A stretch of DNA of 64,000 nucleotides from Pirellulales bacterium (GTDB lineage Bacteria > Planctomycetota > Planctomycetia > Pirellulales > PALSA-1355): assembly GCA_022844125.1 (NCBI GenBank), contig JALHMI010000007.1, positions 8,896 through 72,895 on the forward strand, read 5' to 3'. Numbering within the stretch: the stretch's first letter is position 1; every line of letters starts with the position of its first letter. Of this stretch, positions 26,358 to 38,127 are shown in pieces. Both the position numbers and the translations under genes were made by a program. The notes beneath the pieces were generated by a model. The model ran no database searches. It was not told where the DNA came from and saw only the letters and a list, made by a program, of their open reading frames with translations.

Positions 26358-27740
26358 ATGCGAACTATGTTCATTCGACGTACGGCAGTCTGGCTGTTGG
26401 CGCTTGGAGCGCTCGCTTCGTTGGCCGAAATCGCCAGTGCTCAGCCCGCTCACTCGGGCGTGCAGTATCAAACGCCGACCCCCACCTATGAAAATGGCAG
26501 CGCGCCGTTCGCCGAATCGGCACCGCGCGATCACGGTCTGAATCCGTTCAAGCCGGTGGGTTTCGAACCGGAATTCGATTGGTTCGCCCCCTCGGAGACC
26601 AGCAGCTACGGCAAGGGTCCGAAACCGAATATCGGCTTCTTCTTCAGCTACGAGCGGCTCTACTGGTCGCCCGCTTCGCCGGAGAAGGCCTACATTGGTA
26701 GCGAAGTCGAGCCCTCGCCTGTGCCTCCGTTCGAAGAGGTAAACACGTTCTTTCCCAACGGCCCGAGTGTTGATAACCGGTTCATTACCGCACACGGCAT
26801 GTGGGGTAACCGCTGGGAGCTTGGCTACACCGACGTGGACGACTACGGCTGGCTCGTCAGTGTTCTGGATCACGTCAGCCAGGGAACCTACCGTACCGAT
26901 TTCAATCCGGCCTTCATTCTCACCGACCCGAATGGCATTACGAATGCCACGGTAGGGCTGCCCATCACAGATACCGATGACTTCTTGGCCTTCGATATTG
27001 GACCACTTCCGGCCATCCCTGAAGAGCTGCAAATGAAAAACATCCTGCAGCTCAACGGCGTCGAAGTCAGTCGTTTTTACCGCGCTCGGCAATTGCACAA
27101 CGGTGCGTTCTTCGAACTGATGTACGGCGTCCGGTGGTTCAACATCAACGACACCTTTTGGGCACGTGCCTTTGGCAACGGCTTCTCGAGCGAAAACCTT
27201 GCAATTCCAGGTGGCGACTTTCTGTTCTTCACCACAGACGCGACGACTGCCTCGTTTCCGACGAACATCTACGATGCAACTACCTGGAGCATGCGGGCGA
27301 ACAATAACCTGATTGGTCCGCAAATTGGCTTCCGATTGTTTCGGGAACGCCAGCGGTGGATCACCTCGATGTCTGCCCGATTTCTGGCCGCCGCCAACTT
27401 CCAGAATCTGCAGCTTAAGACCGACATCGGCTCGCTCACCCGGCTTACCCAGTCGGCAATCAATGACAACCTTTCTACGGACTTCCGTGGCCTAGGATCA
27501 GATATCCAGGAGTACACCACGACGTTTTCGCCAATGGGCGAACTGCGAGTCAACGTGGCCTACAACGTCACGCGAGCCGTCAACATTACCGTCGGTTACA
27601 CGGGCTTAGTGGCGGGCAACATCTCGCGGGCCAGCAACAGCATCGACTACGACGCCGTAAACCTGATCGGCATCAAGCGCAACACGGACCAGATCTTTTG
27701 GACCAACGGTCTCGACTTTGGCTTCGCCATCAACCGCTAA
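26358..27740 (+). CDS. BBP7 family outer-membrane beta-barrel protein
   Basis: A 460-residue protein with a signal peptide (AVWLLALGALASLAEIASAQ). It belongs by appearance to the planctomycete BBP7 (PF07585) family: aromatic-alternating strands such as FFFSYERLYWSP, GNRWELGYTDVDDYGWLVSV, FELMYGVRWFNINDTFW and LIGPQIGFRLFRERQRW, ending in TNGLDFGFAINR with a terminal aromatic/Arg typical of barrels. It is expected in the outer membrane as a porin or structural barrel. ATG at 26358 is annotated; ATG at 26367 has better spacing from AAGGTGG and is a possible true start. A long hairpin follows at 27778-27821. Confidence 0.82.
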   Translation: MRTMFIRRTAVWLLALGALASLAEIASAQPAHSGVQYQTPTPTYENGSAPFAESAPRDHGLNPFKPVGFEPEFDWFAPSETSSYGKGPKPNIGFFFSYERLYWSPASPEKAYIGSEVEPSPVPPFEEVNTFFPNGPSVDNRFITAHGMWGNRWELGYTDVDDYGWLVSVLDHVSQGTYRTDFNPAFILTDPNGITNATVGLPITDTDDFLAFDIGPLPAIPEELQMKNILQLNGVEVSRFYRARQLHNGAFFELMYGVRWFNINDTFWARAFGNGFSSENLAIPGGDFLFFTTDATTASFPTNIYDATTWSMRANNNLIGPQIGFRLFRERQRWITSMSARFLAAANFQNLQLKTDIGSLTRLTQSAINDNLSTDFRGLGSDIQEYTTTFSPMGELRVNVAYNVTRAVNITVGYTGLVAGNISRASNSIDYDAVNLIGIKRNTDQIFWTNGLDFGFAINR

Positions 27741-28209: not shown

Positions 28210-29187
28210 ATGATTACGCTGGTTACGGGCGCCACCGGCCTGGTCGGGAACAACGTTGTGCGGCGTTTGGTTGCCCAGGGGCGCTTGGTGCGCGTTCTCG
28301 CAAGGGCCACCGCCGACCCGCGCCCGCTGGCAGACTTGCCCCAGGTGGAGCGGTTTGAGGGGGACGTACGCGACGCAGCCGCGGTTCGCCGAGCCCTCGC
28401 CGGGGCATCCGCTGTCGTGCATGCCGCCGCCTCGGTTCACATTGGCTGGTCGGGACTGGCCGAGGCGCAGGCCATTAACGTCGAAGGTACCCGAAATGTC
28501 GCCGAGGCAGCCCACGCTCTTGGCGCCCGCCTGGTTCATGTCTCGACGATCGATGCTTTGGCCGTCTGGCGAGGTGGCGCCCCCGTGAACGAAGAGACGC
28601 CCCTCGATGAAGGGATCCGCATTCCGTACGTCGTTACCAAGCGTGCCGCCGAGCAGGTGATTCGCCAGCTGGTCTCCCAGGGACTCTGGGCGGCAATCGT
28701 CAATCCCGGCTTCATGATTGGTCCGTACGACTGGAAGCCTTCGTCAGGACAGATGCTGCTTTCGGTGGCTCGCGGTTGGGGCCTGTGGGTGCCGACCGGC
28801 GGGAACTGCTTCTGCGACGTCCGCGACGTGGCCGACGGCATCGTGTCTGCCCTTGAACGAGCACGGCCTGGCGAGCGCTATATCCTGGGCGGTCACATGC
28901 TCAGTTATCGCCAGGCCTGGCGGATCTTCGCCGAAGTGAGTGGCGGCACTCCGCCCGTGTTTCCCATCGGCCCGCTGATTCGCTACGGCGCGGGCTACGT
29001 CGGCGACATCACGGGGAAGCTCACCGGTCGCGAGCCGATCGTGAATAGCGCCGCCACGGCCATCGCTAGCCGCAAACGTAGCTTCTCGAGCGCGAAGGCC
29101 GAGTCGGAGTTGGGCTATCGTGTTCGCCCGCTGCGAGAGTCCGCCGCGGACGCCTGGCAGTGGTTCCGCGAGAACGGTTATGTTTGA
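28210..29187 (+). CDS. NAD-dependent epimerase/dehydratase-type reductase (dihydroflavonol reductase-like, CerR candidate)
   Basis: A 325-residue atypical short-chain dehydrogenase. The Rossmann glycine motif VTGATGLVGNNVV is at residues 4-16, the catalytic Ser in VSTIDALAV and the YxxxK pair in PYVVTKRAAEQ. The C-terminal part carries substrate-binding residues (IVNPGFMIGPYDWKPSSG). The family reduces keto groups on sterols, flavonols and, in bacterial ceramide synthesis (CerR), 3-ketosphinganine-type intermediates. It converges on the acyl-AMP ligase/ACP/oxoamine synthase fusion with 26 bases between stops, which makes a role in reducing that enzyme's 3-keto product attractive. This is inference from neighbourhood. 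Confidence 0.82.
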   Translation: MITLVTGATGLVGNNVVRRLVAQGRLVRVLARATADPRPLADLPQVERFEGDVRDAAAVRRALAGASAVVHAAASVHIGWSGLAEAQAINVEGTRNVAEAAHALGARLVHVSTIDALAVWRGGAPVNEETPLDEGIRIPYVVTKRAAEQVIRQLVSQGLWAAIVNPGFMIGPYDWKPSSGQMLLSVARGWGLWVPTGGNCFCDVRDVADGIVSALERARPGERYILGGHMLSYRQAWRIFAEVSGGTPPVFPIGPLIRYGAGYVGDITGKLTGREPIVNSAATAIASRKRSFSSAKAESELGYRVRPLRESAADAWQWFRENGYV

Positions 29188-29213
29188 AGTACGCCCGGCG
29201 CACCCTTTGCGAG

Positions 29214-32200
29214 CTAGCGGGCTTCAGCGGGTGCCGAGGCCGCCGGCGAATGGATGCCGTTAACGCTGACAATCCCCCGCAGGTACCGCGGGTCGATCTT
29301 GCGAAGCTCCTCGGCGACTGCGTTGACAGTGTCGCGGATTTGCCGCTCGCTGTGTTCTGATGTGATGAAGAACCGCAAGCGTGCAGCTTTCTCCTCGACC
29401 GCCGGGTGCAAAATCGGCTGCACGTTAATGCCGCGATCGAACAGCGCCTGCGACAAGCGTAGGGAATCGAGCGAATTGCCCAGGATCACCGGGATGATTG
29501 GGGTCCCCTCGCTGAGGCCCGTATCCAGTCCCTTCTGCTTGGCCAGCTTCAGGAACAGGGCCGCACGTTCGCGCAGCCGGGTCGAGCGTTCGGGCTCAGC
29601 CTGCAAAAGTCGCAAAGCAGCCAATGCCGCCGCGCAGTTCTGCGGTGTCATGCCCGCCGCGAACAGGAAACCGGGCGCTGTGTACTTGAGGTACTCAACC
29701 AGTGCGTGCGCACCGGCGATATAGCCCCCGCAACTGCCGAAAGCTTTGCTGAGCGTTCCCATCCAGATGTCGACGTCGCGCGCATTGATGCCAAAGTGCT
29801 CGGCGATGCCACGTCCACGTTCGCCGAGGATGCCAGCCGAATGGGCTTCGTCGACGTAGAGTAGCGCGTGGTGCCGGTTCTTGACCTCGATGAACCGCGG
29901 CAGGTCGGCGATGTCGCCGTCCATGCTGTACACGCTTTCAATCGCGATCACGACGCGGCGATAGGTGGGTCGCAATTCCTCCAGCAGCTTGTCGAGCTCT
30001 CGCCAGTCATTGTGTGGGAATGAGCGCCGACGAGCGCCAGACAGGATCGAGCCCTGAATGATGCTGTTGTGCGCGAGCGCGTCGTGCAGAATCAGGTCGC
30101 CAGGGCCGAACATATGACCCAGTACCGTTTCGTTCGTGGCGTGACCGCCCACCATCGCCAGGGCTGCGTCCACGCCAATAAAGTCGGCGAGCGCCTGTTC
30201 GAGTTCGCGATGGATCGGCTTCTCTCCCGAAACCAGCCGGCTGGCCGAAACGCTGGTGCCATAGCGATCGACGGCACGTTTTACGGCGGCCACGACGCGC
30301 GGATCGCCCGAGGTGCCAATGTAGTTGTAGCTGGAGAAGCTGACCATCTCGCGGCCGTCGATCAGCGTGGTGTCGTTGATCACGCGTTCGTGGACTGTGA
30401 AAAACGGATTGCGATATCCGGCCGCGTAGGTCATTTCCATTTGGGTTCGCAGGCGGCGGTACTCAGGGAACTGGTCGAAACGATAGGTCTCGGGCGAAAT
30501 CTCTGAAACGGCTTCGCGCGGCATCCGCTCTTGCGGCTTCTTGCCAAGGTAGGTTTCGACCGCGGCAGCCACTTCGCGAACCGTTTCGATCTGCGGGAGG
30601 ACTTCCTCCGGAAACCGCCCGCCGTAGGTTTCTTCGAGCGAGGCCACGATTTCCATTCGTTCCAGCGAGTCCAGGCCGAGCTCGGGAATCGAAGCGTCCA
30701 GTGTCAATTCGACGGCACGCTCTTTGGCGACGCGCCTCACGTGCTCCATCACAATCTCGACAGTGCTCATGTCGGCTTGTGCCCCGTCGGCCGCCTTTTC
30801 CGCAGTTGGAGTCAGTGACGTCGGTTTGTTTTCGGCCGTCGGGGCTGCGGCCGGATTCGTCTTGGGAGCAGCGGACAGCGGGGCTGAGGTATTCGCCCAT
30901 ATCTGCCACTGATAGACGGATTCCAGATTGCCCTGCAGGAACTCCTGTCGACAGGCATGGCGCTGGATCTTGCCGCTGGACGTCTTGGGAATCGAACCCG
31001 CTTTCATCAGCACGACGGCATCCAGGTTGAGCTCGTGCTCGGCGGCGACTGCCTTGCGAATCGCGTCGACGACTTCTTGCAGGGAATCGGCCTGGCCACG
31101 TTCGATCTCCTGCACCAGGATCAACCGTTCCACGCCCTCGATCTCGCAGGCAAACGCTGCACCATTGGCCGGCCGCACGCGCGGGTGAGCCCGCTCGGCA
31201 GTGGCTTCGATGTCCTGCGGATAGTGATTCAATCCGCGAATGATAATCAGGTCTTTCAGGCGGCCCGTGACAAACAGTTCACCGTCCTGGATAAAGCCCA
31301 GGTCGCCCGTACGCAAGAACGGGCCTTCGCCCGTGTCTTTGAGATACGCCCGGAATGTTCGCTCCGTTTCCTCGGCACGGTTCCAGTAGCCCTGGGCGAC
31401 GCTGGGCCCCGCGACCCAAATCTCGCCGATCTGATCCGGAGGGACGCTGGTCATGTTCTCGGGATGGGCAATCACGATCCGCTGATCCAGCAGCTTGCCG
31501 CCGCTGCCCACCATTTCGCGAGCACCCTCCTCATCGGCCAAAGCGTCAACAACCTGGTTATTCTCAAGCGCCTCGGCGTCGAACGTCCGGACGACGGGGA
31601 GCGCCGCCTTGAAACCGCCCGTGACGATCAGCGTCGCCTCGGCCATGCCGTAGCAGGGATAGAATGCCGTGCGGCGGAAACCGCAGGGCTCGAACATCTT
31701 GGTAAATGCATCGAGCGTTTCGGCCCGAACCGGCTCGGCGCCATTGAACGCCAGGTTCCAACTGCTCAGGTCGAGGTGCGCCCGCTGTTCGGGCGTGATC
31801 TTCCGCACGCACAAGTCGTAAGCGAAGTTCGGTCCGCCGCTGATCGTGGCCCGGTATCGCGAGATCGCTTTCAGCCAGCGGAACGGCCGCTGCAAAAAGG
31901 CCATCGGGCTCATCAGCACGCTGGGCCGGCCGATGAACAGCGGCTGCAGAATGCCTCCGATCAGGCCCATGTCGTGGTAGCTGGGTAGCCAGAACACGCC
32001 GCTGCCGCTGCGGGTGTGTTCGAAAGCGTAGGCGATCTGCGCCGAGTTGTGCATCAGGTTGGCATGGGTCAGCATCACGCCCTTGGGCGTACCCGTCGAG
32101 CCGGACGTGTACTGCAGGAACGCCAAGGTGTCGCCATGCACATCGGGCAGGCGCCAATTGTTCTCCAGTCCCTCGGGCATTCGGTCCGTCGAGAGCCATT

Positions 32201-32720
32201 CGATCTTTTGCAGATCGGGCGTCTGATCGAGCACCGGCTGCACGCGTTCCCAGACGGCGTAAGTCGTGAGCGCGATCCGTGCTTGCGCATCATCGGCGAT
32301 GGCCTGAATACGCGAGAGCGAGCGATTGCGGCGCGGCGGATACGCCGGCACGGCAACCACCCCGGCATACAAACAGCCGAAGAACGCGGCGATAAATTCC
32401 AGGCCAGCCGGATACAACAACAGCGCTCGTTCGCCTTCCAGACCTTGCTGTTGCAAGTGCGCGGCGATGGCGCGTGCCTGGCGATCAAGCTGTTGACACG
32501 TGTACTGAATTTCCTCAGTCTCACCGTCGACAAGATAAATGAACGCCGACGCGCTGGCCGAGTGCGCCGCGCGGTGTTGCAGCAAGTCAACGAGATTCGA
32601 GGGACCGAAGAACGATCCCGGCAGATGATCGAGATGCACGGCTACTTGTAACTCATGTTGCGAGTGGCGGGTATTCGAGGCGCTCGGGCCGGCACGCGCA
32701 AGGTGCCTAGATGCTACCAT
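29214..32720 (-). CDS. Fatty acyl-AMP ligase / acyl carrier protein / alpha-oxoamine synthase fusion
   Basis: A single 1168-residue protein with three domains. Residues ~35-600 are a fatty acyl-AMP ligase: YTSGSTGTPKG at 204-214, FNGAEPVR, RTGDLGFIQDGELFVTGR, and the catalytic Lys584 in SSGKIQR. After a Pro/Ala-rich linker (~605-650), residues 651-730 are an acyl carrier protein with the phosphopantetheine serine Ser685 in LGLDSLERM. Residues ~750-1150 are a PLP-dependent alpha-oxoamine synthase (AONS/KBL/SPT class) with DEAHS at 957-961 and Lys992 in GTLSKAFGS. Expected reaction: activate a fatty acid, load it on the ACP, and condense it with an amino acid (serine, alanine or glycine) to a 3-keto amine. 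No signal peptide. Start ATG 32720; GTG at 32639 is possible. Confidence 0.9.
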   Translation of the reverse strand: MVASRHLARAGPSASNTRHSQHELQVAVHLDHLPGSFFGPSNLVDLLQHRAAHSASASAFIYLVDGETEEIQYTCQQLDRQARAIAAHLQQQGLEGERALLLYPAGLEFIAAFFGCLYAGVVAVPAYPPRRNRSLSRIQAIADDAQARIALTTYAVWERVQPVLDQTPDLQKIEWLSTDRMPEGLENNWRLPDVHGDTLAFLQYTSGSTGTPKGVMLTHANLMHNSAQIAYAFEHTRSGSGVFWLPSYHDMGLIGGILQPLFIGRPSVLMSPMAFLQRPFRWLKAISRYRATISGGPNFAYDLCVRKITPEQRAHLDLSSWNLAFNGAEPVRAETLDAFTKMFEPCGFRRTAFYPCYGMAEATLIVTGGFKAALPVVRTFDAEALENNQVVDALADEEGAREMVGSGGKLLDQRIVIAHPENMTSVPPDQIGEIWVAGPSVAQGYWNRAEETERTFRAYLKDTGEGPFLRTGDLGFIQDGELFVTGRLKDLIIIRGLNHYPQDIEATAERAHPRVRPANGAAFACEIEGVERLILVQEIERGQADSLQEVVDAIRKAVAAEHELNLDAVVLMKAGSIPKTSSGKIQRHACRQEFLQGNLESVYQWQIWANTSAPLSAAPKTNPAAAPTAENKPTSLTPTAEKAADGAQADMSTVEIVMEHVRRVAKERAVELTLDASIPELGLDSLERMEIVASLEETYGGRFPEEVLPQIETVREVAAAVETYLGKKPQERMPREAVSEISPETYRFDQFPEYRRLRTQMEMTYAAGYRNPFFTVHERVINDTTLIDGREMVSFSSYNYIGTSGDPRVVAAVKRAVDRYGTSVSASRLVSGEKPIHRELEQALADFIGVDAALAMVGGHATNETVLGHMFGPGDLILHDALAHNSIIQGSILSGARRRSFPHNDWRELDKLLEELRPTYRRVVIAIESVYSMDGDIADLPRFIEVKNRHHALLYVDEAHSAGILGERGRGIAEHFGINARDVDIWMGTLSKAFGSCGGYIAGAHALVEYLKYTAPGFLFAAGMTPQNCAAALAALRLLQAEPERSTRLRERAALFLKLAKQKGLDTGLSEGTPIIPVILGNSLDSLRLSQALFDRGINVQPILHPAVEEKAARLRFFITSEHSERQIRDTVNAVAEELRKIDPRYLRGIVSVNGIHSPAASAPAEAR

Positions 32721-34923: not shown

Positions 34924-35796
34924 TCAGAAAATCGGGTCTTGCGATTGTTCGCGCAAGAACAACCGATGCCAGGCATAGCGAATCGGCCCCACCAGGACAA
35001 ACGCCGCACACAGCACGGGCACCGAGTAGCCGCGAAACGACATGATGAACACGAACGCAAACACCAAAAGCACGACGTGGGCAAAACTGCGCTGGCCGCG
35101 GAAAATCTGGTTCACGACATGCGGATAGGGAATTCGTGAAACCATCAACAAGGCCACCGCCAGGGCGAAAAATGGCAATCCCATCTGCACCGCCTGATCG
35201 ATCTCCGCTGCGTAAATCAGCGGCGTGCTGGACTGCCGCAGCTCGTAGAACAGGATTGCAAAGCCCGCGATGGAAGCTGCTGCCGCCGGCGAAGGAAGTC
35301 CACTGAAATTCAAATGGTCGTCGTCCTCACCTGTTTCGACGTTGAACCGCGCAAGCCGGAGCGCAGCGCAAGCCGCGAATGCCGCCGCAATGAGCCAGAT
35401 CTTGTCATATGAATAAGTGAACGTCGGACACATTTTTACCAGCAAGAACCCGGGCGCAACGCCAAACGACACCACGTCGCAAAGGCTATCGAGTTGCGCG
35501 CCAAAGTCCGTCGTCGAGCGCGCTAGCCGCGCAACGTGCCCATCAAGCGCGTCGAACACCATTGCCAGAAAAATCAGCCAGCCGCTCAGCATCACATTGT
35601 GTGTGTCGTTCGTGGGGTCCAGCTGCTTCATGAACGAACGGGGACTCGAAAACGAGATCTTATCGACCGCCGCCGGTGGATCGAGCGAAGTCGGTCGTTC
35701 GACGCGGGCTGCCACGACAATCGCAAAGAACCCGCAGATCAGGTTCGCGAGCGTGAACATCGTTGGAAAGACTGCGACCGTGCGGATTCGACCCAT
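34924..35796 (-). CDS. pssA: CDP-diacylglycerol-serine O-phosphatidyltransferase
   Basis: A 290-residue integral membrane enzyme making phosphatidylserine. The CDP-alcohol phosphotransferase motif DG-x2-AR-x8-G-x3-D-x3-D is complete in DALDGHVARLARSTTDFGAQ and the following LDSLCD. About seven hydrophobic segments follow the start. I chose the ATG at 35796 (MGRIRTVAVFPTMFTLANL), where family similarity begins; an ATG at 35889 would add 31 basic residues and overlap the psd stop by 11 bases, suggesting translational coupling. psd is immediately upstream, so the pair forms a phosphatidylethanolamine operon. Confidence 0.9.
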   Translation of the reverse strand: MGRIRTVAVFPTMFTLANLICGFFAIVVAARVERPTSLDPPAAVDKISFSSPRSFMKQLDPTNDTHNVMLSGWLIFLAMVFDALDGHVARLARSTTDFGAQLDSLCDVVSFGVAPGFLLVKMCPTFTYSYDKIWLIAAAFAACAALRLARFNVETGEDDDHLNFSGLPSPAAAASIAGFAILFYELRQSSTPLIYAAEIDQAVQMGLPFFALAVALLMVSRIPYPHVVNQIFRGQRSFAHVVLLVFAFVFIMSFRGYSVPVLCAAFVLVGPIRYAWHRLFLREQSQDPIF

Positions 35797-35878
35797 GTTG
35801 GGCCTCGACTTCCAGAATCGTTTGGCAACTGGTTCGAGAGGAAGTGGTTTCTGTGCGCCGCGTCGCGACCGGTAACGT

Positions 35879-36850
35879 TCAAACGGCATCGACACTTGCA
35901 CCCGGGAGGCGAACCAAGACCGTGCTCCCTCCCTTAACTTTATCACCGATCTGGGCCACGATCTCGAGCCCGGGCTCATCCGGTAGCAGCAGTTCCGTCC
36001 GAGAGCCAAGTTTGATCATACCGAATTTGTGGCCGCGGGCGATAACTTCGCCACTTCGCAAGTTGCAAACGATGCGGCGGGCCAAAAGTCCGGCAATTTG
36101 GCGGACAATCAGCCGGCGGTGCGGGGCCGCCTCTTCTTCCAGGCCGATCCAGAGATTCTCGTTTCGAATGGCGCTTTCTGGCTTGAGTGCATTCAGAAAC
36201 AAGCCGGGGTTGTACACCAGCCGGATGACGCGCGACTTCACCGGGGCGCGGTTGATGTGCACATTGAACACCGACAGAAAGATGCCCAGCCGCAGGGCCG
36301 GCCCGCCGATGAATTCGTCGTGTTCCACGCGCGAGATCTCAACCAGCACGCCGTCAGCGGGCGAGACCACCAGGCCCGGGTCGCTGGGTACCCGGCGGGG
36401 CGGATCGCGAAAGAAATACAACACGAACAGAAACAGCACGGCCGGCACGATCGCCAGGCTCCAGTGGAACCAGGCGCCCACCGCGGCCAGCAGCAACATT
36501 GGGTAACCCATGATCTGGACTTCAGCCAGCCCCCAGCGGGCCAGCGGCAGCCGATCGCGCCAGCGGAACGGATCGTCCACGGCGGCCCAATCGCAGGTAA
36601 CCAGGTTGCGGCAGTATTTCAAATCGCGCGGATCGAGAATTGCATGAGGAGCGCCCTCGTCCGAGCCGCGCCGAAGCGCGGCCATACGCGCCACGTATCC
36701 CTGGCGAAACGTACGCAGAAACCACCGCCGCCAGCGCCCCCAGGCAAGCTCCAGCTGGTAGCAAACACCGCTTCCCGGCTGCACGCTCCAAAGGTTTTCG
36801 GGCAGCGGTTCGGGCGGAAGACGATGGGGTGGCGAATCGAGCTGGGACAT
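35879..36850 (-). CDS. psd: Phosphatidylserine decarboxylase
   Basis: A 323-residue proenzyme converting phosphatidylserine to phosphatidylethanolamine. The catalytic His region is FLSVFNVHINRAPVKSRVI, and the self-cleavage/pyruvoyl site is in FGMIKLGSRTELLLP (Ser of GSR). This is the variant seen in the shorter Psd subclass, in place of LGST. VVSPADGVLVEI is also conserved. About 100 extra residues precede the core, including a hydrophobic pair (MGYPMLLLAAVGAWFHW). The start is the ATG at 36850; an ATG at 36892 is possible. The stop overlaps the longest pssA frame. It is predicted at the inner membrane. Confidence 0.9.
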   Translation of the reverse strand: MSQLDSPPHRLPPEPLPENLWSVQPGSGVCYQLELAWGRWRRWFLRTFRQGYVARMAALRRGSDEGAPHAILDPRDLKYCRNLVTCDWAAVDDPFRWRDRLPLARWGLAEVQIMGYPMLLLAAVGAWFHWSLAIVPAVLFLFVLYFFRDPPRRVPSDPGLVVSPADGVLVEISRVEHDEFIGGPALRLGIFLSVFNVHINRAPVKSRVIRLVYNPGLFLNALKPESAIRNENLWIGLEEEAAPHRRLIVRQIAGLLARRIVCNLRSGEVIARGHKFGMIKLGSRTELLLPDEPGLEIVAQIGDKVKGGSTVLVRLPGASVDAV

Positions 36851-37041
36851 ACTGGACGCAGGCACAGGGCGGGTGACGAGCCAACGGTGCATCGTATCCG
36901 GTCCGGCGCTGGTTGAGAAGGATTGCAGGTGACTTGTGTGTCGGACCGTCGAAGCAGTGCCCGCGGGGTGGTATAATCCGGGTGCATAACTGCGAACGTG
37001 GGAGTAGTCACGGCGGTCTATCGAAAACACTGGGAATCTAA

Positions 37042-38127
37042 ATGCGTGAACTTCTCCCACAACTGATGAGCAACCTCGAGTCCGGTCGCCCTGTCGCGGT
37101 TTGCCGGCTGGTCGAGACGCGTGGCTCGACACCGCAGAAGGCCGGCGCCGCAATGCTCGTGTTTGCCGACGGTTCGCAGGCCGGCACGCTTGGCGGCGGC
37201 TGCGTCGAGGCCGAGGTCAAACGTCGCTCGCTGGCAATTATTTCGGGTGGCAATGCTGAAATAGCCACGTTCCAGCTCGATGACGACTATGGCTGGGACG
37301 ACGGGCTGATCTGCGGCGGTCGGATGCAAGTGATCATCGATCCGCTCTCGGAACCGTCCGCGCGCGACTACTACCGCAGACTTCATGAGCTGGCGAGCAG
37401 CGGTCGAGGCTGCACCGAGGCCATCGTGTTCGACGGAGAAACCAGCGCCTTAATGGCATCGGCCTGCTACCTGTTCGATGCCGACGGCGAGTTGCTCGTA
37501 CAGGTGCGTGCAGGTGAGGACTCGGAAGCGCCCATCGCGATTCGCGAGAACCTCCGGCCGCTGGTCGAACGACCCAAGCCGCTTGCCGCACATGGCGTGG
37601 CCTATCTGCCGCTGCTCGAGCGTTGCCGGCTCGTGATCGTGGGCGGCGGGCACGTCGGTCAGGCCGTGGGCCATCTGGCGGCCGATCTGGACTTCGATGT
37701 CTGGGTTGTCGACGATCGCGCCGAATACGTTACCGAAGAACGCTTCCCGCACGCTGAACGCCGCATCTCGGGCACGATCGGCGACGTGCTTCCTGGCCTG
37801 GAAATCACGCCCAGCACGTACTGCCTGATTGTCACCCGGGGCCATAACCACGATGAAGAGGCGCTCTATCACCTGGTCAATCGCGGGGCACGCTACGTCG
37901 GCATGATCGGCAGCAAGCGGAAGATCAAGCTGATCTTTGACGATCTCCGCGCCGAAGGCATCGCGGCCGAGACGCTGCGCGAGGTTTATGCTCCGGTCGG
38001 TCTCGACATCGGTTCGCAAACCGTGATGGAGATCGCCGTTAGCATCCTGGCCGAACTAGTCGCTCACCGAAACCTGGGCATTGCCGGCCATCACACCCGC
38101 GAACGTCTGATCGCTCACGGCCTGTAG
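37042..38127 (+). CDS. XdhC/CoxI family protein
   Basis: A 361-residue protein with the N-terminal XdhC_CoxI domain (VAVCRLVETRGSTPQKAGAA, GTLGGGCVEAEV, ICGGRMQVIIDP). The C-terminal Rossmann domain has CRLVIVGGGHVGQAVGHLAA, CLIVTRGHNHDEEAL, YVGMIGSKRK and PVGLDIGSQT. Family members insert or sulfurate molybdenum cofactor for xanthine dehydrogenase-type hydroxylases. The next gene, 47 bases on, is a MocA-type nucleotidyltransferase, so the two form a molybdenum-cofactor maturation pair. No molybdenum hydroxylase subunit is in the window. Cytoplasmic. Confidence 0.9.
   Translation: MRELLPQLMSNLESGRPVAVCRLVETRGSTPQKAGAAMLVFADGSQAGTLGGGCVEAEVKRRSLAIISGGNAEIATFQLDDDYGWDDGLICGGRMQVIIDPLSEPSARDYYRRLHELASSGRGCTEAIVFDGETSALMASACYLFDADGELLVQVRAGEDSEAPIAIRENLRPLVERPKPLAAHGVAYLPLLERCRLVIVGGGHVGQAVGHLAADLDFDVWVVDDRAEYVTEERFPHAERRISGTIGDVLPGLEITPSTYCLIVTRGHNHDEEALYHLVNRGARYVGMIGSKRKIKLIFDDLRAEGIAAETLREVYAPVGLDIGSQTVMEIAVSILAELVAHRNLGIAGHHTRERLIAHGL

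Follow-up and report, generated by a model that had tools for sequence, protein, structure and literature searches.

A single protein of 1168 residues, in which a fatty acyl-AMP ligase (FAAL), an acyl carrier protein (ACP) and a pyridoxal phosphate (PLP)-dependent alpha-oxoamine synthase (AOS) follow one another, is encoded on the minus strand (29214..32720) of a 64,000-nucleotide stretch of DNA from a Pirellulales bacterium. This whole stretch, called the window below, corresponds to G000:C7:8896-72895 in the 6.44 Mb draft genome G000. Judging from the sequence comparisons presented here, the fusion is likely to be a self-loading serine palmitoyltransferase (SPT)-type enzyme which starts ceramide synthesis, with serine as the presumed amino acid. 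The support for this reading is mainly comparative and consists of the catalytic residues, the clade of the AOS domain, the conservation of the fusion throughout the order, its co-distribution with homologues of the bacterial ceramide synthase (bCerS) and several gene linkages. An earlier reading of the window, made from the letters alone (the sequence-only reading), had described the fusion and interpreted it, along with an adjoining reductase, as a candidate compact sphingoid-lipid locus: the observation was confirmed, and the interpretation was partly supported.

Domain architecture and class of the oxoamine synthase

The open reading frame (ORF), the Pfam matches and the motifs agree with the domain order previously described, and orthologues occur through the order. 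The FAAL domain (approximately residues 41-607; 30900..32600, minus strand), which was assigned on the basis of Protein Data Bank (PDB) matches and family models, includes the Pfam AMP-binding (48-446) and DIP2-like C-terminal AMP (490-601) domains. It is followed by the ACP domain (residues 657-721; 30558..30752, minus strand), matching PP-binding with an E-value of 3.7e-11, and by the AOS domain (approximately residues 745-1145; 29286..30488, minus strand), in which Aminotran_1_2 was matched at 791-1134 (7e-45). The catalytic positions are Lys584 (codon 30969..30971) in a TSSGK motif, the phosphopantetheine-bearing Ser685 (30666..30668) in GLDS and Lys992 (29745..29747) in GTLSK. The top PDB matches of the ligase part are FAALs (7r7f, 659 bits over residues 41-606, and 3kxw, 470 bits), the FAAL family models score above the CoA-ligase models and the catalytic lysine is present; in terms of its sequence, this domain is classified as a fatty acyl-AMP ligase, nearer to FAALs than to acyl-CoA ligases. 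The active-site motifs of the AOS domain are intact: DEAH, GTLSK with the PLP-lysine, the stacking His and the Arg toward the C-terminus could all be aligned. A chance ORF or an assembly artefact is ruled out by the full-length matches, showing 52-79% identity, which were obtained throughout the window's order.

The AOS domain is 31-40% identical to the SPT, BioF and KBL of Escherichia coli, the 5-aminolevulinate synthase (ALAS) of Azospirillum, the KBL of Bacillus, two further SPTs and the AOS of Thermus, and 48-57% identical to a set of plasmid-borne AOS genes. The annotated relatives on plasmids are mostly stand-alone AOS genes located beside a type I polyketide synthase (PKS) of approximately 2500 residues (Pseudomonas L099, Paraburkholderia L102, Caballeronia L103, Shinella L104 and Sinorhizobium L105), several of them along with a short-chain dehydrogenase/reductase (SDR) and capsule genes. 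In Planktothrix (L101), the AOS relative is fused to a PKS, and in Streptomyces (L097) it lies within a 1607-residue protein adjoined by an MMPL transporter. No PKS was present among the ORFs listed for the 64-kb window around the fusion, whose AOS is instead fused to a FAAL-ACP.

Two AOS trees were built, the first including every second fusion sequence and the second every fourth, minus five other sequences (long branches and duplicates). The fusion AOS and the PKS-linked AOS genes formed one clade (support 99/96 in the first tree and 100/99 in the second), referred to here as RkpG/SgaB-like; the SPT references formed another (99/95 and 95/92), and BioF and KBL also stood apart. The phylogeny proposed in the sequence-only reading as a check on the PLP domain thus speaks against a BioF, KBL or ALAS identity (ALAS being a single long branch of unsure placement), and likewise, as far as the clade is concerned, against a classical SPT.

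The nearest enzyme with a published activity is PfSgaB (locus KW062_RS19800) from Pseudomonas fluorescens MYb115, which shows SPT activity and uses L-serine almost exclusively (PMC12134224). This AOS is a separate protein encoded along with PfSgaA, an iterative type I PKS building a C24-C28 chain, and the same article counts 6101 homologous PKS-AOS pairs, most of them in Burkholderia. PfSgaB, which was not among the tree sequences, probably belongs to the same clade as the fusion AOS, because the PKS-AOS pairing is the same and because the SDR gene of the Pseudomonas plasmid locus L099, the fifth annotated gene after the AOS, has the position which the sgaC locus numbers suggest. The active-site motifs of the Pseudomonas AOS beside the PKS are equal to those of the window AOS.

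Two further kinds of proteins were observed in this connection. In eleven genomes of the family f15 (among the matches listed), a second AOS of the same clade ends a frame of approximately 2580 residues (2564-2621; L202, L203), and these frames apparently encode fused PKS-ACP-AOS proteins, that is, SgaA and SgaB in one chain. A second FAAL-ACP-AOS-type protein, 1109 residues long (L080, G017:C10:1532776-1535946), carries an AOS grouping with the Streptomyces AOS domains and not with the window's clade.

Distribution of the fusion and of bCerS homologues

The fusion was present in 35 of the 39 relatives analyzed (the gene of G030 is cut by contig ends). In a class-wide draw of 148 genomes, where four candidates were scored per genome, 34 of the 37 genomes from the window's order were found to carry it, against none seen among the 111 from other orders. 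The matches listed for the latter at E <= 1e-150 were to FAAL or FAAL-ACP proteins alone; at this threshold, a fusion with a weak AOS would appear as a FAAL only. Among 147 genomes drawn from the order, 126 carry an AOS of the fusion type at E <= 1e-110; when 20 stretches were fetched as a check, FAAL and AOS were found to share one frame in 18, the remaining two being cut by contig ends. One copy per genome is the rule among the matches listed in this draw. Blastopirellula, Rhodopirellula and Pirellula are among the named carriers in public contigs. In the 147-genome table, G162 was counted as carrying the fusion, as were G187, G188 and G203, although no AOS passes the threshold in these three (contig ends interrupt the sequence in G188 and G203). 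Six genomes with a FAAL match and no AOS at E <= 1e-110 (G005, G015, G175, G179, G182 and G191) were counted as fusion-less, and so were G214, which has a 547-residue AOS frame only, and G241, the AOS of which was not among the matches listed. In three genomes of one genus (G091, G183 and G212), the FAAL part is still 64-66% identical to that of the window, a pattern of divergent or exchanged AOS in an unchanged architecture. Four contigs titled Candidatus Kuenenia stuttgartiensis (L215, L216, L221 and L222) also carry the fusion, with 56-59% identity and close to Pirellulales; their labels may be wrong.

The sequence-only reading had seen no N-acyltransferase. This holds within the window, but the missing N-ACYLTRANSFERASE has a counterpart on another contig of the same genome, where a bCerS homologue was identified (G000:C2:160619-161722; 34% identity, E 6e-65). 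Homologues of YghO/Aca, the E. coli N-acyltransferase of this type, were found in 35 of the 39 relatives, with full-length matches at 32-38% identity. When the G000 protein was used as the query (E <= 1e-30) in the class draw, bCerS was detected in 34 of the order's 37 genomes and in none of the 111 others. The co-occurrence of the fusion with a bCerS homologue, which the sequence-only reading had suggested checking, was thus observed. Both genes were found together in 33 of the 148 genomes, the fusion alone in one, bCerS alone in one and neither in 113; the corresponding counts in the order draw (n = 147) were 128, 2, 6 and 11. Fisher tests, in which relatedness is ignored, gave values of 1e-30 in the class draw and 7.5e-11 in the order draw. 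Since the eleven genomes without either gene are spread over six genera (4, 2, 2, 1, 1 and 1), their joint absence has recurred.

The architecture is not confined to planctomycetes: a pattern scan of a species-genome collection yielded at least 45 loci, among the 79 kept, in which a single ORF encodes both FAAL and AOS, and those examined from other groups belong to Nostocales (L238), Desulfobulbaceae (L239), Limnothrix (L245), Legionella (L247 and L251) and a Bacteroidetes metagenome-assembled genome (MAG; L250). In both Legionella loci, a bCerS homologue (35 and 34% identical to YghO, respectively) lies upstream of the fusion on the same strand, overlapping it by 1 and 4 bases. This overlap and the co-distribution described above support, at the level of sequence, the earlier proposal of a single-chain sphingoid-base synthase that unites the steps of the acyl-ACP synthetase, the ACP and SPT. 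In the cyanobacterial loci L238 and L245, a classical SDR follows the fusion, overlapping it by 8 bases or lying 16 bases off, and shares 36-41% identity with the SDRs that adjoin two rhizobial AOS genes. When six named fusion genomes were searched, bCerS was found in four (Desulfobulbaceae, Legionella, Bacteroidetes and Blastopirellula, the last being B. marina DSM 3645, whose fusion is L226). The fact that the AOS of L245 and L250 groups with classical SPTs (95/92) while their FAAL is close to that of the window (52-53% identity) suggests that the architecture arose more than once, or that the AOS was exchanged.

The fusion is set in an ordinary chromosomal neighborhood. In 29 loci, the genes recurring within 9 kb encode an outer-membrane-type protein (14 loci), a sugar-isomerase-like protein (9), a PQQ-repeat-like protein (8), a TraB-like protein (8), KsgA (8), riboflavin synthase (6), PssA (5) and Psd (5), the names having been assigned from the sequences; simple gene picking missed four loci with the fusion or a paralogue. 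No recurring capsule genes were found around the fusion in these 29 loci. The pssA and psd genes had been placed about 2 kb away in the sequence-only reading: measured from the fusion ORF, the distance is 2.2 kb to the start of the pssA-like ORF (34924..36009) and 3.2 kb to that of the psd-like ORF (35879..37153). Each having been found within 9 kb in only 5 of the 29 loci, they were rejected as functional partners. The most conserved neighbor is the outer-membrane-type protein (26358..27740, plus strand), presumably BBP7-like, whose relatives lie downstream of the fusion on the opposite strand, 70-2009 bases away, in 12 of their 14 loci.

Several observations were made on the surroundings of bCerS. 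A second kind of stand-alone AOS, forming its own clade (100/100), is located divergently beside a second bCerS-like copy in L129, L131, L150 and L170 (G001:C25, G004:C8, G021:C10 and G037:C5, respectively), and may stand in for the fusion in G004, where the latter is missing. In the window's genome, bCerS is adjoined by a phospholipase-D/cardiolipin-synthase-like gene (L127, G000:C2:158944-160560), possibly encoding a head-group enzyme. A FabF-like ketosynthase is present near bCerS in seven loci, in two of which (L086 and L149) it lies between bCerS and a reductase of the window type, and a fatty acid desaturase-type protein is present beside bCerS in five loci; these neighbors, which occur in L086, L149, L142 and other bCerS loci, possibly carry out chain-length or desaturation steps.

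The neighboring reductase

An extended SDR of 325 residues is encoded on the plus strand (28210..29187) and converges on the fusion with a gap of 26 bases, as previously described; its Pfam Epimerase domain spans residues 4-227. The sequence-only reading had regarded this protein as CerR-like, which was not upheld. In the reductase trees, where the non-adjacent sequences were thinned, the window reductase and its orthologues formed an HpnA-like clade (99/98) joining PDB 3wj7 and 2x4g (100/100), and the CerR-type genes of E. coli, Klebsiella and Roseomonas (100/100) grouped with another planctomycete SDR clade. A member of the latter clade is also present in the window's genome (G000 C1:39275-40375; EPIlike_L185, inside the clade with the CerR references, 100/100). 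A joint clade of CerR and the window reductase was rejected (p-AU 0.002 with one CerR and 7e-7 with three), the three-CerR tree having been calculated without L184 and L186 and without the RfaD outgroup; in an earlier tree, RfaD had grouped with CerR on long branches.

Nor does the pair form a conserved two-gene locus: among the 39 relatives, the adjacency of fusion and reductase was seen only in the window's family, f1 (G000, G001 and G002), and elsewhere the two genes are apart (in G003, both lie within approximately 270 bases of contig ends). The description as a compact locus thus goes too far. The reductase might be unrelated to the fusion, namely a hopanoid- or sugar-type HpnA-like SDR which happens to be its neighbor in one family, and its best NCBIfam model, HpnA (246 bits, below the cut-off), would fit this explanation. 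This label is however uninformative and cannot serve as proof of a hopanoid enzyme, since HpnA is also the best model of E. coli CerR (95 bits). Moreover, orthologues of the window reductase are located within 3 kb of bCerS in at least 28 of the 75 genomes carrying one; these genomes come from five of 16 families, although a single family accounts for 22 of them. Of the 75 genomes, 74 also carry bCerS. The adjacency count was made with the better listed bCerS matches, to which the remaining listed ones add none by eye. The linkage to bCerS in these genomes means that the window reductase can belong to the pathway, and we hold with moderate confidence that it is a pathway enzyme, probably a keto-reductase; an unrelated neighbor is rather unlikely. 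The earlier suggestion that the reductase takes part in the pathway thus stands in this altered form, without the CerR identity. The CerR-clade SDRs for their part adjoin bCerS in 6 of the 39 relatives (G009, G021, G024, G026, G032 and G037).

Proposed pathway and alternative explanations

In the proposed pathway, the FAAL domain would convert a free fatty acid and ATP into an acyl-AMP, and the fused ACP would accept the acyl group on the phosphopantetheine arm of its Ser685. Using the PLP carried by Lys992, the AOS domain would then bring about a decarboxylative condensation of the acyl-ACP and an amino acid (most likely L-serine), from which a 3-keto-sphingoid base results. A second acyl chain would be added by the bCerS-type N-acyltransferase encoded elsewhere (G000:C2:160613-161737), and the keto group would be reduced by one or two extended SDRs, the CerR-clade one (G000:C1:39275-40375) and/or the HpnA-like one adjoining the fusion; the products would be dihydroceramide-type lipids. 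The activation and loading steps were assigned because of the domain types and the parallel with the AasR-AcpR pair (PMC9386255), the condensation because of the AOS clade, and N-acylation and reduction because of co-distribution and gene linkage. The amino acid, the chain length, the order of N-acylation and reduction, the role of the neighboring reductase and lipid production itself are the parts that we infer.

Several known systems resemble this scheme. The acyl-ACP synthetase, dedicated ACP and AOS steps are the same in the AasR-AcpR-SPT system of Caulobacter and E. coli BL21(DE3) (PMC9386255; L094); in the latter strain, five ceramide genes including the N-acyltransferase YghO/Aca occur together, so that a bCerS-type acyltransferase is present in the same genome, and AasR is annotated as a fatty acyl-AMP ligase. 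That system differs in that three separate genes are involved, the AOS belongs to the SPT clade and CerR is present alongside; the window FAAL is 34% identical to AasR and the window AOS 31% identical to E. coli SPT. In PfSgaAB(C), the AOS most likely belongs to the same clade as that of the fusion and uses a carrier- or CoA-bound acyl chain and serine, no classical SPT being involved, whereas the chain is built by a PKS and the AOS is separate, while here a ready-made fatty acid would be loaded by the FAAL onto the fused ACP. SgaC is a classical KDSR-like SDR, unlike the extended SDR of the window, and bCerS is not described in the accessible text on this system (PMC12134224). The Limnothrix (L245) and Bacteroidetes (L250) proteins have the identical domain order in one chain and differ by their SPT-clade AOS. 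The rhizobial AOS on Sinorhizobium pSymB (L105) is 48% identical to that of the fusion and belongs to its clade; it is a stand-alone protein beside a PKS in a capsule region, with no FAAL-ACP fused to it, and we take the two to be RkpG and RkpA, respectively. No description of the FAAL-ACP-AOS fusion, its order-wide presence or its tie to bCerS was recognized among the papers listed by the literature searches, which covered open-licence papers, and the accessible text of two FAAL papers (PMC11837247, PMC8460268) holds no mention of oxoamine or pyridoxal. Npun_R3567 from Nostoc punctiforme, an AOS which yielded no 3-ketosphinganine in E. coli and was placed with cyanobacterial BioF homologues (PMC8895605), was not among the sequences of our AOS trees.

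Several points weigh against a ceramide-starting enzyme. The fusion misses the cut-offs of the NCBIfam SPT equivalogs (312/640, 274/500 and 234/670 bits), one of which is passed by E. coli SPT (599/500 bits); it likewise misses that of bioF (346/426 bits). PfSgaB itself was not in the trees, and in the divergent genus mentioned above (L297, L299 and L300) the fusion AOS is only 34-36% identical to that of the window. The fusion occurs without bCerS in G132 and G188 (the latter fragmented) in the 147-genome draw, and in G002 (86% complete) in the 39-genome set; six of the 147 genomes have bCerS with no fusion seen, and bCerS was not found in the two cyanobacterial genomes among the six named fusion genomes. 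Within the order, the fusion adjoins bCerS only in G031, where the copy concerned is a second bCerS-like one, 36% identical to that of the window's genome. Some bCerS copies adjoin a different AOS (G001, G004, G021 and G037), and bCerS may thus also serve another base-maker. Lastly, no lipid data on the order were found in the open-licence literature.

Among the alternatives bearing on the product, the best surviving one is that the same machinery uses L-alanine or glycine and gives 1-deoxy-sphingoid (2-amino-3-ketone) lipids, which would then be N-acylated. The amino acid is not fixed by the sequence, and several active-site motifs set the clade apart from classical SPTs; we nevertheless regard this as improbable in view of the almost exclusive use of L-serine by PfSgaB and the identity of motifs between the window AOS and the Pseudomonas AOS beside the PKS. 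It is less probable still that the product serves a surface polysaccharide, as its lipid anchor or as a building block, rather than being a membrane ceramide. The rhizobial rkp genes have been proposed to make such a compound, and close AOS relatives are located in capsule gene clusters in Paraburkholderia, Caballeronia, Shinella, Sinorhizobium and Pseudomonas. Capsule genes do not recur around the fusion, however, which is co-distributed with bCerS, and the two explanations are compatible with each other. Papers on sponge PKSs mention rkp and wcb clusters, without AOS chemistry in their accessible text (PMC3908369, PMC4245539). The least probable alternative is a secondary-metabolite enzyme giving an acyl amino-ketone or a prodiginine-like product: FAAL-ACP didomains are typical starters of PKS and nonribosomal peptide synthetase products (PMC8460268) and some AOS relatives sit in such clusters, but the fusion, found in 34 of 37 genomes of the order, is chromosomal, along with ksgA, riboflavin synthase, pssA and psd, and is as a rule single-copy among the matches listed.

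It is already known that AOS enzymes take part in sphingolipid synthesis, that SPT can be ACP-dependent or PKS-linked and that Spt-like genes occur in MAGs of Planctomycetota. In a study on the Black Sea, Spt-like proteins were inferred in 138 Planctomycetota MAGs, and homologues outside the chosen clade were taken as probably not related to sphingolipids (PMC11334938). Surveys seeking classical SPT may have set the SgaB clade aside. A broader reading, to which we incline with some reserve, is that ceramide-type sphingolipids belong to the ordinary membrane lipids of the Pirellulales as a whole, their synthesis being started by a self-loading, CoA-free SPT of one chain, on which the acyl group stays until condensation; that the FAAL-ACP-AOS architecture was assembled at least twice, from AOS of the SgaB type (planctomycetes, Legionella, Nostocales and Desulfobulbaceae) and of the SPT type (Limnothrix and the Bacteroidetes MAG); and that the SgaB clade is a second major root of bacterial sphingolipids. 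If this holds true, sphingolipid synthesis would be a core trait of a large planctomycete order, in which the gene to be sought differs from classical SPT and would provide a marker for lipid surveys. The fusion would be a natural example of an SPT loading its own acyl carrier, and the capsule-associated AOS genes of rhizobia and other Proteobacteria would be tied to sphingoid chemistry.

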